Below, in pieces: positions 5,070 through 45,429 of a stretch of DNA of 45,429 nt. Position 1 is the first letter of the stretch, and every line of letters begins with the position of its first letter. Source of the DNA: a virus. Position numbers and translations under genes: made by a program. The notes beneath the pieces were generated by a model. That model did no database searches, was not told where the DNA came from, and saw only the letters and a program-made list of their open reading frames with translations. The stretch is taken from the IMG/VR virus record IMGVR_UViG_3300027852_000065, positions 1 through 45,429 of that record. One strand, written 5' to 3'.

Positions 5070-5092
5070 AAATGGTTACAATGTGTGTATTT
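5070..5092. promoter_or_regulatory. 23-bp palindrome, site 1 (upstream of DUF3850 gene)
   Basis: Half-site AAAT-N4-ACA, central A, then TGT-N4-ATTT. It overlaps the end of the preceding gene and ends 11 bases before the ATG of the minus-strand gene 4801-5058. The flanking CCTCCT (plus strand) is the SD of that gene. Confidence 0.8.
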
Positions 5093-11225: not shown

Positions 11226-11244
11226 AACAGTTTTATGTTATGCC

Positions 11245-11391
11245 GCTCCTCGCCTACCGAGCCTTTTTACCCCCGTTTCTCGTTTAGCCTCAACCGAGCT
11301 TCTCCCTTGAAGGCGGAGAGGAGGCCTCGGGCGTGGTTACGTCTCCGGCCTTGCGTCCGCAGCAAGCTGCGTCCGCTCGCCCTTTTTATAC
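11245..11391 (-). repeat. GC-rich interspersed element, copy B
   Basis: It begins directly after the stop of the zinc-ribbon gene (11386) and is far richer in G and C than its surroundings. On the minus strand it carries a GCAGCTTGCTGC hairpin, then the shared core GACGTAACCACGC, CCTTCAAGGGA and AAGCTCGGTTG. Copies A (11610-11740, opposite orientation) and C (inside terL, 21371-21505) share these blocks in the same order. Stops occur in its frames, so it is probably non-coding here. Confidence 0.75.
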
Positions 11392-11565
11392 ACTATTTCC
11401 TCTTCGGGTATTATATATCTCGTCTCCGCATACAGGGCATATTGCCTTAAAAAGGTATGAGCCGTCTCTTAGATCGAGTGTTACTTGTACATCCTCCGAG
11501 GGCAACAAACGAAATCCAGAGTCTTCACATTTGTCACAATACAGGTTATAAAACTGAACCTCCAT
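11386..11565 (-). CDS. Zinc-ribbon miniprotein
   Basis: 59 residues from the ATG at 11565, which has a TAGGAGGTG SD. The open frame reaches further upstream, but that part is only read-through of the palindrome and GC-rich element A. Cysteine pairs YCDKC (8-12) and CPVC (44-47) are spaced as in a zinc ribbon. The final residues are DEIYNTRRGNSV. This gene is enclosed by GC-rich elements A and B in inverted orientation. The role is unknown; binding of nucleic acid or a protein partner is typical for the class. Confidence 0.65.
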   Translation of the reverse strand: MEVQFYNLYCDKCEDSGFRLLPSEDVQVTLDLRDGSYLFKAICPVCGDEIYNTRRGNSV

Positions 11566-11578
11566 AATCACACCTCCT

Positions 11579-11601
11579 AAATCGTTACATTGTGGGTATT
11601 T
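11579..11601. promoter_or_regulatory. 23-bp palindrome, site 4
   Basis: AAATC-GTT-ACATTGT-GGG-TATTT. On the minus strand it ends 13 bases before the ATG of the zinc-ribbon gene, and the SD AGGAGG lies in between. Element A starts 9 bases beyond its other end. Confidence 0.8.
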
Positions 11602-11609
11602 AACTCGTT

Positions 11610-11740
11610 TTGCCTGTCGAGCGGCGGAAGGTGCTTCAGCGCCGACCGACGCCAGACGCAACCACCCTCGGAACCCTCCTCCCTTAAAGGGAAAAGCTCG
11701 GTCTGCGGTTACAGGCAAGCCGAGGGTTAAACAGCTCGGT
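11610..11740 (+). repeat. GC-rich interspersed element, copy A
   Basis: It is bounded by an 8-bp inverted repeat, TTGCCTGT at 11610-11617 and ACAGGCAA at 11711-11718. A further similar stretch (CCGAGGGTTAAACAGCTCGG) extends to about 11740. The core AGACGCAACCACCC, CTCCTCCCTTAAAGGGA and AAGCTCGGT aligns closely with copy B and in part with copy C. Orientation is opposite to B. No convincing open frame is present. Confidence 0.75.
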
Positions 11741-11747
11741 TGTTGGA

Positions 11748-12026
11748 TCAGGACAGGTCAAGAAGGCTAGCGTTACTAATAGCTATATCTAAAGTCTTTA
11801 ATGTCTTTACAAGTTCATTAACTTTTAAGCAAAGTTGTGTATAGGTATAACTTTCTCCTAAGGTTGTTACCTTTGTAATGGTTGCTGCATAGTCGATTGC
11901 TGGGATCTTCTGGCCTATCTCTAGTTTATCTGGAGCTTTACCATTGACAGATCTTAGTATCTCGTTGGCCTCGTCTTTAGTTGCAGAAATCAGGCAACCT
12001 TTGTTCGTTTTTGCTATAATTTCCAT
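11748..12026 (-). CDS. Hypothetical protein
   Basis: 92 residues, not recognised. The beta-like N-terminus (MEIIAKTNKGCLISATKDEA) and a C-terminal helix end in KTLKTLDIAI, the same eight-residue LKTLDIAI found at the end of the MazG-like protein at 420-740. The SD AAAGGAG lies upstream of the ATG. Palindrome site 5 stands 33 bases before it. GC-rich element A follows its stop. Confidence 0.65.
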   Translation of the reverse strand: MEIIAKTNKGCLISATKDEANEILRSVNGKAPDKLEIGQKIPAIDYAATITKVTTLGESYTYTQLCLKVNELVKTLKTLDIAISNASLLDLS

Positions 12027-15014: not shown

Positions 15015-15434
15015 TTAAAAGTGACTATAGATTAAATATTTAATCTTAGGCAAGTTAGGTAGCTTTTTCAATTTTGCGCTGCCCTCACACGAAAGATGAA
15101 TACAATTAGGTAGATCTGGTATATGTATTAGATTACGACAATTCTTAATGTAAATATTCTCTCCTTTAGGGAGTTCTGGTAAATGTGTTAAATTTGGCCA
15201 ATAACTACAATCTAATGTCACACAATCTGGCAATACTTTGGGCAACCATTGCTCTAATATACCTCGTGAGACACACCAACTAAAATTAGCTAATAAAACA
15301 TTATCGAAACTTTTCCTGGATCTTGCTCTGGTTAATTTTCTATACTCTGTTTCACAGGCATCTTTGTCTCGGCATGCTTCAATAATTTGTCTTCGATTCT
15401 TCCAGGCTTCTGTAATTCGGATAGGTTTGGTCAT
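15015..15434 (-). CDS. Leucine-rich-repeat-like protein (LPx type)
   Basis: 139 residues. After a helical basic N-terminus, the C-terminal 75 residues form three to four short repeats ending in LP, such as LTHLPELPKGENIYIKNC, LIHIPDLPNCIHLSC and LKKLPNLPKIKYL. This is the compact bacterial LRR pattern of about 20 residues, known from effector proteins and some phage or prophage proteins. It should bind a protein partner. An early anti-host or anti-defence function is possible but inferred only from position. Confidence 0.6.
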   Translation of the reverse strand: MTKPIRITEAWKNRRQIIEACRDKDACETEYRKLTRARSRKSFDNVLLANFSWCVSRGILEQWLPKVLPDCVTLDCSYWPNLTHLPELPKGENIYIKNCRNLIHIPDLPNCIHLSCEGSAKLKKLPNLPKIKYLIYSHF

Positions 15435-15781: not shown

Positions 15782-15919
15782 CCTTTTGAGGCTGTTTTGG
15801 TTCATTAGTTTGGGCTTGCCCAAGATGGTTTTGGGATCACGATCCGCTCCCGCATATGGGTAACATGGGACACGAAAGGATGAAATATTTCACGAAACCC
15901 CAGAGTATAGGTGGCCTTC

Positions 15920-16120
15920 TTTTTTATTTTGATTTGTTCTTCAGTTTGTTTGTTCTTTTCTGATTGTTTCATGTTTTGAGTTTGTTTGTTGTTTGTAGTT
16001 TGTTTGTTGTTCTTTTCTTATAAAAAAAATATTTTTAAAATAAGAAATAAGAAATAAGAGAAAAAGAAACTAAAACTCAAAAACAATTTAAAACTAAAAC
16101 CAAAACACAAAAACAAAAAG
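15920..16120. other. Strand-biased T-rich/A-rich tract in 750-bp gene-free region, origin candidate
   Basis: The whole 15745-16495 stretch has no convincing gene. Its centre is a T/G-rich half with three exact copies of AGTTTGTTTGTT (15943, 15979, 15997), then a very AT-rich switch point near 16020-16040. An A-rich half follows with AAATAAG repeats and an imperfect inverted match to the first half. Easily melted, repeat-bearing DNA between divergent blocks is typical of replication origins. The region also holds the terminator at 16120 and palindrome site 6. Confidence 0.45.
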
Positions 16121-16145
16121 AAGCCCCCTTATACGGAGGGGTTTC
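16120..16145 (-). terminator. Probable intrinsic terminator of first early unit
   Basis: The stem CCCCT...AGGGG around a 7-base loop is followed on the minus strand by GCTTCTTTTTG, a U-rich tail. On the plus strand it is followed by GTTTCG. It would stop minus transcripts coming from 17347-16496 before the A/T-rich tract. Confidence 0.55.
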
Positions 16146-16251
16146 GTTAAATATTTCGTGCTTTCGTGTTCGTCGTTGCCCATATTTCATAAACCCAACC
16201 AATTCTACGTGAGGCCCCGGCCCCGCCCTGAATCAGTACGGTATAACTCTT

Positions 16252-20046: not shown

Positions 20047-22053
20047 ATGGACTACCCTAAGAACATGACAGCAAACCTTGTTTGGCGAAGGAAGCTTCTT
20101 CTTAAAGCCGCTCAAGATGCGGAGTTCAGGGCTAAGCTGACTCGTCTCTATCATGAGGATATTCTATTTGCCTTCAATGCTTTTTACTATACCTTAGATG
20201 TCAGAAAGAGACCAGATCACAATATACCTTTCTGCACCTATGCTTATCAGGACAAAGCCATCTTAACCATTCAGCAGCACATAAAAGAAGGTCGAGATCT
20301 TCTCATAGAAAAATCTCGTGATATGGGTGCTACATGGATGATCTTAGCTTGTATCTTTCACTCCTGGCATGCCCCTGAAGGTGGTGGGGATTTCTTACTG
20401 GGTTCTAGGAAAGAAGACTATGTAGATAAGAAAGGAGATATGCGAACGCACTTTGCTAAGGTCAGGTATCTTTATAAGAGACTTCCTGTTTGGCTCAGGC
20501 CGGCAGGCTTTAACCAGCGTGCTCATGACACCTTCATGAAGTTTCAGAATCCAGTTACAGGTTCCTCGGTGACAGGTGAGAGTAACAACCCCAATTTTTC
20601 TACCCAGGGTCGTTATGCCGCTATCATGTATGACGAGTTTGCTAAGTGGGAGAACAGCGATGAAGCAGCTTGGACGGCGGGTGGTGACGCTACACCATGC
20701 CGGATAGCCCTAAGTACGCCTTTCGGAGCGGGCGGTCAATACTATTCCCTGGCCATAGGTAAGAAGCTTAAGGTGCTTAGGCTTCATTGGAGCCTACATC
20801 CTGAGAAGGCTTTGGGTCTTTCTTGTGTTTGGCCCCCGCCCAATGAGGAGACAAAGAATGAGTTGGGGGATAGATGGAGGCCCAAGGTAAGGCTTACGTC
20901 CCCTTGGTACGACCGAGAGTGTAACAGAAGAACGGCTAAAGAGGTTAAACAAGAGTTAGATATAGATTATTTGGGCTCGGGTGATCCTGTCTTTGATGGG
21001 AGAGCATGGGACAATCTCATGCTTTATCATGAATTAGAGGATAAGCCGAAAGCACTTGGTAGGCTTAGGGTTGAGGACTTCGGGGTAAGCTGGGTGTCGG
21101 AAGATGAGGGCTTTGATTTTGCGGGAACCCTGATGGTCTATGAATCTTATAATCCTAAGGCCTACTATTGTGCTGGCGTAGATGTAGTAGAAGGTGTCGA
21201 AAACGGCGACTACGCCACCATAGTTATCTACAATAGGATAACAAAAGACGTCGACGCCTTCTACTACTCTAGAATAGACGAGCTTGGATTGGCCAAGGTA
21301 ATTAAAATTATAGATAGACTCTACGGTGGGACCGGGTTCGATGACTCGGTCTATGCGGACAGCCCTACTAGTGCGACGGACGGCTTGCCGGCCGGTGCGC
21401 CGAGCGAAGGCCGTGGAAGACCCACCCACGCTCACGTAGACTCCTCCTTCAAGGGACCTGGCTCGGTTGGTCTTGAGGGGCTCCAGGCCGAGGCGTCCAG
21501 GGCAACGGCAGGTGATCCAGGCGAAGAAAAAGGCCCTTGGTGGGGTATAGAGACGACAGGACCAGGATTGTCTACGTTTGATAAAGTGCAAGAGTTAGAT
21601 ATAAATAATCTGTTTATGGCCCCAAGATTTGATGTGGTAAAGGGGGGTGTGAGCTACAAGAAAGGTTGGAGAACAGATACTAATTCTAGAAATGAGCTTG
21701 TTTCAGGAGTTCGAGAATGGCTAAATGATGGTGCGGGGAAGTTAAACTCAGGAAGACTTTGCGGCGAGCTTATGACTTTTGTGCGAAGTAAGACAGGTAA
21801 GCCTCAAGCTAAGAGTGGTTGTCATGACGATGCCGTTATGGCCTTTGGTATAGCTATTCAAGTAGACCAGATTGTCCCGTTAGATGAAGAAGAAGTGAGG
21901 ATGGCTGTAGCACAAATGAGGGATTTTGTACAGACTCCTTTGGAGGACGTTAGATTAGACGAAGTATCTAAGACAGATGAAGATTATTGTATGGATACAG
22001 TGTTACAAAGGATCGCCTCAAAAGTAGATGAGACCTTTTTTGATATGTATTAA
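20047..22053 (+). CDS. terL: Terminase large subunit with GC-rich in-frame insertion
   Basis: 668 residues. The ATPase domain has the Walker A variant EKSRDMGATW (about 90-99) and Walker B IMYDEFAKWE (about 197-206). The RNase H-fold nuclease has GVDVVEGVENGDYATIV (about 378-394) and the final HDDAVMAFGIA (about 597-607). It pumps DNA into the capsid and cuts it. Residues about 429-497 (21331-21537) interrupt the nuclease between LYGG and WWGIE. This segment is rich in Gly, Pro and Ser, coded by strikingly GC-rich DNA, and contains element C. It has no stop, so it is either translated or removed by splicing or bypassing. Confidence 0.9.
   Translation: MDYPKNMTANLVWRRKLLLKAAQDAEFRAKLTRLYHEDILFAFNAFYYTLDVRKRPDHNIPFCTYAYQDKAILTIQQHIKEGRDLLIEKSRDMGATWMILACIFHSWHAPEGGGDFLLGSRKEDYVDKKGDMRTHFAKVRYLYKRLPVWLRPAGFNQRAHDTFMKFQNPVTGSSVTGESNNPNFSTQGRYAAIMYDEFAKWENSDEAAWTAGGDATPCRIALSTPFGAGGQYYSLAIGKKLKVLRLHWSLHPEKALGLSCVWPPPNEETKNELGDRWRPKVRLTSPWYDRECNRRTAKEVKQELDIDYLGSGDPVFDGRAWDNLMLYHELEDKPKALGRLRVEDFGVSWVSEDEGFDFAGTLMVYESYNPKAYYCAGVDVVEGVENGDYATIVIYNRITKDVDAFYYSRIDELGLAKVIKIIDRLYGGTGFDDSVYADSPTSATDGLPAGAPSEGRGRPTHAHVDSSFKGPGSVGLEGLQAEASRATAGDPGEEKGPWWGIETTGPGLSTFDKVQELDINNLFMAPRFDVVKGGVSYKKGWRTDTNSRNELVSGVREWLNDGAGKLNSGRLCGELMTFVRSKTGKPQAKSGCHDDAVMAFGIAIQVDQIVPLDEEEVRMAVAQMRDFVQTPLEDVRLDEVSKTDEDYCMDTVLQRIASKVDETFFDMY
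21371..21505 (+). repeat. GC-rich interspersed element, copy C, inside terL
   Basis: It shares with copy B the ordered blocks GCGA-GGAC, CTTGC, GAAGGCCG/CAAGGCCG, CCACGC, CCTTCAAGGGA and GCTCGGTTG. Flanking terL sequence has normal composition. The exact ends are uncertain; the protein-level interruption spans 21331-21537. Confidence 0.7.
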
Positions 22054-42308: not shown

Positions 42309-43949
42309 ATGGCTGTTTTATGTGACGCAAATACTGAGTATATTGCTCTAGCGGATAACGCTAAGTGGACGGTTACGCCTGTTGATGATGATAAAGCGGT
42401 TTCTCTTTGGTATAAGACATCCTCTATTCCAAATGCTGACAACGAATACCAAAGTCTATTCCTTTTAAATCAAGGCTCAGGCAATAAGTTTCACTTGCTT
42501 TTGATTAATAATTCCGGCACAAATCTATTGCTGATTATGCTAAGAGATTCCAGTTGGGCTGGGCTTGGGTATATGTATTGTCCCTGGTCTCTATCTGTAG
42601 ATACTTGGTATCATATAGTTTTTAATAGTGGGGCGGATAATGCCTGTGATATTTACATTGATGGTGTGTCACAAAGCCTGACATATACAAGCTGGGATGA
42701 TAACACAGAAATAGATCCAACCATCCGACGCTTCGGAGGTGATGATAGTGCTATACATGACGACGTAACCATTGCTCATTTTGCCTGGTGGGACGCTAAA
42801 TTATCTCAAGATGAGGTAGATCTACTTCGATGGCATCCTCAATGGTGCATGGGTCACTCCAATCTTTTAGCCTATTTTCCACTTGACGAACTGAGCGGCA
42901 CAACCGCAAGAGATCATAGCGCCTCAAGTGGCCAGACAGCTACAGATGGTACTCTAACAAATAGTCCGACTTGGGTTGATGGTCCTCCGGTCACTAAACA
43001 AAGTGCTAGTTTGTTTGTTGAGTATATTGTGGTAAGTGGTAATACTTTAGTTGTAGCGTCTGCTGACAGTGCGGGAATCCTTGATAATATAACTCTCACG
43101 CAAGCCCATACTTTAGTTGCTCAGGCTTTACTATCTTCAGGAGCGTTAGACAATGTAGCATTGACTCAGAAAAATATTTTAGAGATACAGTCTTTAAATA
43201 ACTCTGGACTTTTAGATAATATTACCTTAACTCAGGCACATGCTCTCGCGGTCCAGGCATTAACTGGGACAGGGACTCTTGATAATGTATCTCTTGTTCA
43301 AAAGCATATTTTAGCAATACAAGCTTTAATGAGTTCCGGGACTTTAGATAATACAACTTTAACCCAAGCTCATACTCTTGCGGTTCAAGCCTTAGCTGGA
43401 GCAGGAACACTCGATAATGTATCTTTGTCTACAATTCTTGCTATAGCTGAGATGCTCTCTAATGGGGTTATAGACAACATAACTCTCACACAAAAACACG
43501 TTTTAGTTATCCAAGAGGCGCTATCCTCAGGGTCTCTCGACAATGTCACATTAAGTTTGTCAACATTATTAATTATAGCCAGTCTAACAAGTGCGGGGTC
43601 TCTCGATAATGTAGCCTTAGTCCAAAAACATGTCTTAATTTTGCAGGAATTAATATCGACTGGAACTCTCGACAACATAGCATTAGTTCAAAAACACGTC
43701 TTAATCGTGGAAGCTTTACTATCGGCGGGGTCTCTTGAGAATGTAGTATTGACATTAGGAACTCTTTTAGTAGTACAAAAATTAGCATCTTCTGGGGTTC
43801 TAGACAATGTAACACTAACACAAAAACATATTTTAGCTATACAAGAGGCTTTGTCTTCTGGGTCCCTCGATGATATAATATTATCTGGAATAGACGTTTC
43901 TAACGCTGATCTTGAAGATATTTTAAATTGGCTAAAACACAGAGCATAA
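42309..43949 (+). CDS. Tail fibre with LamG-like domain and twelve 22-residue repeats
   Basis: 546 residues. Residues about 25-205 are a concanavalin/LamG-like sandwich: AVSLWYKTSSIPNADNEYQS, DTWYHIVFNSGADNACDIYI, FAWWDAKLSQDEVDLLRWHP, LLAYFPLDELSG. It is probably the sugar-binding part. From 43080 to 43865 come twelve units, eleven of 22 and one of 20 residues, with pattern LDNVTLTQKHxLxIQxLxSSG, which should form a regular beta-rich shaft or stalk. The C-terminus is short (ADLEDILNWLKHRA). A receptor-binding role is inferred. Confidence 0.75.
   Translation: MAVLCDANTEYIALADNAKWTVTPVDDDKAVSLWYKTSSIPNADNEYQSLFLLNQGSGNKFHLLLINNSGTNLLLIMLRDSSWAGLGYMYCPWSLSVDTWYHIVFNSGADNACDIYIDGVSQSLTYTSWDDNTEIDPTIRRFGGDDSAIHDDVTIAHFAWWDAKLSQDEVDLLRWHPQWCMGHSNLLAYFPLDELSGTTARDHSASSGQTATDGTLTNSPTWVDGPPVTKQSASLFVEYIVVSGNTLVVASADSAGILDNITLTQAHTLVAQALLSSGALDNVALTQKNILEIQSLNNSGLLDNITLTQAHALAVQALTGTGTLDNVSLVQKHILAIQALMSSGTLDNTTLTQAHTLAVQALAGAGTLDNVSLSTILAIAEMLSNGVIDNITLTQKHVLVIQEALSSGSLDNVTLSLSTLLIIASLTSAGSLDNVALVQKHVLILQELISTGTLDNIALVQKHVLIVEALLSAGSLENVVLTLGTLLVVQKLASSGVLDNVTLTQKHILAIQEALSSGSLDDIILSGIDVSNADLEDILNWLKHRA
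43080..43880 (+). repeat. 66-bp coding tandem repeats in fibre gene
   Basis: Twelve imperfect units read as LDN(V/I)xLTQ... with strong conservation of LDN and less of the rest. One unit (starting at LDNVSLSTILAIAEM) lacks two codons. The unit length and frame are otherwise constant, so copies can expand or contract without breaking the gene. Confidence 0.85.
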
Positions 43950-44851: not shown

Positions 44852-45429
44852 ACTTGAGGTCGAACAATTCTTTATGCAAAAACCCTTCAAATATAATCTC
44901 CCAGTTCTTCCACCTGTGCCATTCATCACTTAATGTATCTGGAGTTGTTCCAGTGTACCACTTATGTCTGGGCCAACAATAACCACCGGAGTCTTTACGT
45001 CCTACTTTTAAGTAAGCAGTATAAGAAGCCAGAGCTACAAGCTCAGAGCAGACAAGAAATTTACCTTTGAAGGTTAGGTACTTAGCTAAAGGTGGTATTA
45101 GTTGAAAAGGTAATCTGTAACCTGGATACCATTTCCCTTCTCTCTCCCGAACTAATTCGTCAATAATCCCCCTCCAGGTAGGAACCGAGACCATATTACA
45201 CCGAGCAATAACAACCCTCTTCCCCTCATAAGCCTCAAATAGATTTTGTCGTTTGTTGGTCCAGAGGGCCTCGAAAGTAGTTCCCTCTCTGTCCAAAATA
45301 ATCCCTGCGTGAGAGTAGGTGGATTTACCATCTCTAGAGATGACCGTCTGAACAGCATTAATGGCTCGACCTAAAGCCATAGGATTTCTAGTAGCAAATT
45401 GATCCCCTACTTGGAGTCTATAGGGCTCA
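44850..45429 (-). CDS. Permuted papain-like (YiiX/NlpC-P60-type) hydrolase, N-terminus cut by window end
   Basis: 193 codons visible; the frame is open to the right edge, so the internal ATG at 45380 is not the start. The left-end copy indicates about 16 further residues. GDQF, then YSHAGIIL (catalytic His) and the later FLVCSELVALA (catalytic Cys) give the permuted NlpC/P60 order His-before-Cys. The last third is Trp-rich (PRHKWYTGTTPDTLSDEWHR). Probably a cell-wall or lipid amidase/esterase used for lysis or entry. It ends at the bidirectional terminator. Confidence 0.75.
   Translation of the reverse strand, partial: EPYRLQVGDQFATRNPMALGRAINAVQTVISRDGKSTYSHAGIILDREGTTFEALWTNKRQNLFEAYEGKRVVIARCNMVSVPTWRGIIDELVREREGKWYPGYRLPFQLIPPLAKYLTFKGKFLVCSELVALASYTAYLKVGRKDSGGYCWPRHKWYTGTTPDTLSDEWHRWKNWEIIFEGFLHKELFDLK
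45055..45429. repeat. Right copy of imperfect terminal direct repeat
   Basis: It pairs with 1-375 in the same orientation, same length, no gaps, about 83% identity. At protein level about 16 of 110 residues differ, many of them conservative. Confidence 0.85.

Follow-up and report, generated by a model that had tools for sequence, protein, structure and literature searches.

A small GC-rich repeat probably inserted in frame in the terminase large subunit gene of a 45-kb phage

The window analysed here is an entire IMG/VR record (G000, 45,429 bases, mean GC 40%) of a phage whose genes include a polA fused to a uracil-DNA-glycosylase-like domain, a primase, a Sak4-like annealing protein, a terminase, a portal and a capsid. 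The terminase large subunit (TerL) gene is found on the plus strand at 20047-22053 and its 668 codons contain zero internal stops, in agreement with an earlier note on this DNA in which the TerL frame had been read straight through a GC-rich element. The 668-residue product matches PHROG phrog_2 (terminase, E 7.5e-16) as well as about 45 TerL relatives of 39-62% identity gathered by two IMG/VR profile scans, and D379 of DVVEG (codon 21181-21183), E502 of GIETTGPG (21550-21552) and D594-D595 of HDDAVM (21826-21831), all on the plus strand, are together with their motifs invariant across the TerL alignment. Judging by TerL nucleases in general, D379 is probably the first of the catalytic acids in the RNase H-fold nuclease. 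An AlphaFold model, for which the input consisted only of window and locus sequences, has a mean pLDDT of 75.5, and when it is used in a Foldseek search T4 gp17 is the top match (3ezk, E 6.6e-17) and several phage terminase nuclease domains rank high. Family match, conserved residues and predicted fold thus all identify the protein as a TerL consisting of an ATPase and an RNase H-fold nuclease.

Just upstream of E502 the gene contains an in-frame insertion of 61 codons (21331-21513, plus strand, aa 429-489), which is missing in all relatives. These borders were set by alignment of TerL homologues, as the earlier note had proposed, and correspond to a net excess of about 61 residues or 183 nt (TGFDDSVYADSPT...SRATAG). 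The note had correctly placed an insertion here, but its estimate of about 69 residues (21331-21537) ran about 24 nt too far, since the residues DPGEEKGP look like a native loop tail of about 8 residues. The loop from '...LY' to 'PW.GIETTGPG' could be counted in 43 of the 45 relatives, leaving out L038, which is without the helix side, and the frame-broken L154, and it comprises 2-15 residues in all 43 (for instance YSHGTGEDQGPW in L035) versus 70 in the window; distant TerL proteins furthermore suggested zero native residues between 'LYGG' and 'WWGIE'. The possibility raised in the note that close relatives might all carry the segment as a native loop is hence contradicted by 43 short-looped proteins out of 43, and among the relatives examined the insertion appears to be private to this phage.

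The foreign composition and low complexity that had been remarked upon are likewise borne out. The GC content of 21331-21537 is 65% versus 45% in the rest of the TerL gene and is raised at all three codon positions, with a GC3 of 62% versus 43%, no other stretch of the window is as GC-rich as the insertion (69% over 100 nt), and the encoded peptide, exemplified by GPGSVGLEGLQAEASR, is rich in Gly, Ala, Ser and Pro. In the AlphaFold model the insert (434-493) has pLDDT values below 50, while helix 412-425 before it and strand 498-502, which ends in E502, after it are both intact, and the model therefore suggests a disordered loop with a helix on one side and a strand on the other in an otherwise confident nuclease fold. 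The insertion does fall in the nuclease by chain position, as had been claimed, but no catalytic segment is replaced by it. It is open throughout its 61 codons with the frame kept, and since its net length is a multiple of three and no stop occurs, it would be translated as part of TerL. The open frame alone is weak evidence, since 15% of shuffled 69-codon stretches with the same composition contain no stop. In a different loop of another TerL relative (L034, 6926-6990) there is a GC-rich in-frame insertion of 18 aa (70% versus 48% GC) bordered by CTTCCCCGAC direct repeats, and because this insert is independent, the TerL lineage takes such in-frame inserts more than once.

Two other GC-rich stretches of the window, 11230-11443 and 11568-11779, align with the insertion, the first by its minus strand and the second, like the insertion, by its plus strand. 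They contain element A (11248-11390, minus strand) and element B (11611-11748, plus strand), and element C (21370-21517, plus strand) is the part of the insertion that is homologous to both, with a homology among the three that spans the entire core. A and B are intergenic and homologous over their full length, with 72.5% identity over 91 nt; A has the sense (minus) orientation of the surrounding small genes, and B is inverted relative to A and situated on the far side of a 59-codon Cys-rich ORF (11389-11565, minus strand, stop codon 11386-11388). Neither this ORF nor the other small genes around A and B were found in relatives, and the region that separates the Sak4-like gene from the exonuclease gene and holds A and B seems to have gained sequence recently, being 1,710 bases long in the window versus about 170 to 1,180 in five relatives. 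With one scoring scheme the local alignments score 95 for A-B, 73 for A-C and 58 for B-C, values reached by none of 2,000 dinucleotide shuffles. For a more stringent control, 1,742 GC-rich stretches of 207 nt were taken from other loci and aligned on both strands with A and with B, amounting to 3,484 comparisons each, and the maxima were 54 for A and 46 for B, such that not one of the 3,484 reaches the score obtained with C. The view of the earlier note, in which C is one copy of a dispersed element, is accordingly upheld, and a covariance model recognizes exactly three copies in the window, namely A, B and C, and no fourth.

The same controls argue against an explanation without any mobile repeat, according to which the loop grew by slippage or illegitimate recombination and the resulting GC-rich linker resembles A and B by composition only, since composition-matched sequences never attain the A-C or B-C scores. 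GC-rich loops do arise elsewhere, as in the L034 insert with its direct repeats, and neither A nor B has anything that corresponds to the leftmost 39 nt of the insertion, but we nonetheless regard such an origin as very improbable. The right end of C, for its part, lies within 4 nt of the right border of the insertion. The copies are only about 70% alike without any near-identical pair and so give no sign of recent movement; C is the most diverged of the three, since a leave-one-out profile of A and B finds it only at E 0.0033, tied with one unrelated place (45200-45291). Divergence to about 70% is in tension with an insert composition that is still foreign.

As for the structure of the element, 14 of the 31 consensus pairs are changed on both sides (6.0 expected, none of 500 shuffles), although this count comes from three sequences only and from a structure derived from these. 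The consensus pairs are kept in 29 of 31 cases in A and 28 of 31 in B versus 23 of 31 in C, which breaks 8 and has a weak consensus fold of -6.8 kcal/mol. A and B are plausibly structured, but for C this is uncertain, and a better-than-chance fold of C itself was rejected, since it does not surpass that of shuffled sequence (MFE -95 kcal/mol for 231 nt, z 0.27). A conserved peptide was likewise rejected, since the mismatches among A, B and C show no third-codon-position bias and since their indels are not multiples of three and break the frame. The compensatory changes might be taken to mean that the element has been put to use, either as a functional TerL loop with a regulatory or protein-binding role or as a signal at the nucleic-acid level, for example for the start of packaging, in which case A and B would be related signals. 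In some phages packaging does start from a site within the terminase gene, and the high GC of the insert has not been ameliorated. This notion is however in poor agreement with the broken pairs and weak consensus fold of C, with the fact that every relative manages without the element, and with the distance of A and B from TerL, and since the consensus structure is furthermore built from the very sequences it is meant to explain, we consider a dedicated function unlikely.

A different proposal, the second branch of the earlier note, is that the insertion acts as a mini-intron, degenerate ribozyme or bypassing element and is lost before translation or in its course, such that the mature TerL loop would be normal. 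It stems from the GC-rich and strongly foldable nature of the DNA, and the occurrence of the element outside genes as well would fit a non-coding origin, but we found no support for splicing or bypass. The fold is, as mentioned, no better than shuffled, Rfam at gathering score detects no group I or II intron core in the whole window and no family over C even at E 3, searches of the window, A/B and C against Rfam yield nothing above chance, and the 183-207 nt in question are below the size of self-splicing introns, which are longer. Like T4 gene 60 and the Magnusiomyces byp elements the insertion is extra DNA within a coding gene, but the gene 60 gap contains stops, changes the frame and is bypassed between matched GGA take-off and landing codons with a stop right after take-off (PMC5009743), whereas the insertion is in frame and open and its border codons (GGG and CCT/TGG) are unmatched. 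Furthermore, removal would turn the 61-codon open frame into an unneeded coincidence (about 15% stop-free times one third for length), and excising a segment that is in frame and stop-free would bring no visible gain, so that we assign this proposal a very low likelihood. TerL inteins, for instance that of phage ctLwi270 (MW202554), are similar in being extra in-frame sequence within a terminase gene, but at 61 residues the insert (TGFDDSV...ATAGDPGEEKGPWW) is too short and has neither a Cys/Ser start nor a His-Asn end, which confirms that intein end motifs are not visible. The ctLwi270 TerL itself (L018:2400-5100, minus strand) has a long intein-like block that starts with CSRPDMRVLLPD and ends with VVSGYLSRNCQQ, and it is annotated as two terminase genes.

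Since the record is a metagenome contig, it should also be considered that the segment may have been joined from another molecule during assembly. The junctions occur in no second record, and the ends of the contig (1-376 and 45054-45429), direct 376-nt copies in a gapless end-to-end alignment, are only 82.7% identical, compared to 94-100% for the end repeats of relatives read whole, which probably reflects two strains mixed in the assembly. An artefact would however have had to hit a loop of variable length, keep the frame with 61 stop-free codons, and involve a sequence homologous to two other places on the same contig, and this makes a chimera highly improbable.

We therefore favor, with a probability of roughly two in three, the explanation that a small dispersed GC-rich repeat landed in a tolerant surface loop of TerL and is translated with it. 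The repeat would be a hairpin-forming sequence with a core of about 140-150 nt, present in three diverged copies in the phage genome, one of which would have entered TerL in the surface loop of variable length between the helix (aa 412-425) and the E502 strand. With a net length that is a multiple of three and without stops it would be transcribed and translated within TerL, giving a flexible loop of 61 residues by which neither the fold nor the catalytic residues would be disturbed; the two remaining copies, A and B, sit between genes. What we infer is that transposition or copying spread the repeat, that TerL remains active with the inserted loop and that its RNA is not processed. The first branch of the earlier note, a tolerated translated insertion, is in line with an insertion that is phage-specific and in frame, occupies a loop of variable length, and leaves the conserved residues intact and the predicted fold normal, and the dispersal of the copies on both strands, in coding as well as intergenic DNA, likewise speaks for a repeat.

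Most known cases of small repeats within protein genes come from Rickettsia and its relatives, and in the palindromic elements of Rickettsia and Wolbachia surface positions tolerate the extra peptide. The phage element is reminiscent of these in being a short hairpin-forming dispersed repeat found between genes and in frame within one. Rickettsia palindromic elements measure about 150 bp and are often in frame inside genes (PMC10969869). Of the features by which such elements are recognized, several copies in and between genes are present here, albeit three only, and an in-frame insertion with empty sites in relatives is present in one case, whereas a conserved peptide frame is lacking; members of the rickettsial families are numerous and conserve a peptide, while the present three diverged copies reside in one 45-kb phage and have frame-breaking indels. 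We make no claim of membership in the rickettsial families, but offer the tentative suggestion, which we think rather doubtful, that this is a phage-borne family of mobile repeats, small and structured, which can insert in frame into essential structural genes and would be the viral equivalent of the Rickettsia palindromic elements, with the TerL copy being both a nucleic-acid structure and a translated linker. Compared to the rickettsial in-frame repeats, the novelty would lie in the phage setting, the essential packaging enzyme, the few diverged copies and the absence of a conserved peptide. With 43 relatives that show the empty site, the TerL copy in any case provides a natural experiment in which one can ask how foreign sequence is accommodated by an essential enzyme and if viral genomes are a place where such repeats move, and it cautions that GC-rich low-complexity segments of viral proteins need not be native domains.

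The element also resembles bacterial MITEs and REP-type repeats, being small, non-autonomous, gene-less, present on both strands and mostly intergenic. Unlike for MITEs, no terminal inverted repeats were seen and no target duplication was found: the borders of C share no 6-mer, although such sharing is seen for 50% of random border pairs, and the GGTGGG pair at 21325 and 21539 was rejected as a duplication, since the spacing of 214 is not divisible by three and joining would lead the frame into a stop. We know of no transposase related to the element, and a tRNA-derived origin was rejected as no tRNA was found. The mycobacteriophage mobile elements (MPMEs) exceed the present repeat in length and contain a small gene, which sets it apart from them. 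What the putative mobile repeat has in common with MPMEs is that these, too, are small mobile elements in phage genomes (PMC3029335).

Beyond the window, the covariance model detects no copy in 706 kb of relatives' DNA, and pattern scans of IMG/VR and bacterial genomes give chance matches only. Among single candidates, L004-L006 were rejected as unrelated sequence without the second block, L119 as a match inside a coding gene and L007 as matching only 27 profile positions. Distant BLAST searches, C and B against phages and A against plasmids, return nothing or chance matches of 26-37 nt, and there is no significant homology between A/B/C and other GC-rich stretches of relatives, including L108:15287-15502.

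Some further features of the genome deserve mention. An imperfect, AT-rich inverted repeat with 68.7% self-complementarity occupies about 330 nt at 15854-16185, with a similar one in the relative G004 (L108:6175-6406), and this is possibly an origin or terminator region. The minus strand at 15015-15434 encodes a small protein with a leucine-rich-repeat-like pattern (LPELPKGENIYIKNCRNLIHIPDLPN...), which is unusual in phage, and the protein encoded at 42309-43949 contains, at 43068-43883, diverged tandem repeats of the LDNVTLTQKHILAIQ type with a spacing of 66 nt and multiples thereof. The dyad AAAT-N4-ACAWTGT-N4-ATTT occurs in eleven exact 23-nt copies (at 5070, 8995, 11203, 11579, 12060, 16252, 19292, 22766, 29488, 34869 and 40077), nearly all of them in gaps just upstream of gene starts and on both strands, and these are probably an operator set for a phage regulator. 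It is absent at up to one mismatch from six relatives read whole, and a stricter form was not found in IMG/VR. Dispersed dyads of other sequence occur in at least two relatives, ATTGATTCAWWWWWTGAATCAAT in G002 (L104/L105) and GTTCAAAWTTTGAAC in G001 (L101-L103), and the operator family seems to be replaced from one related phage to another.
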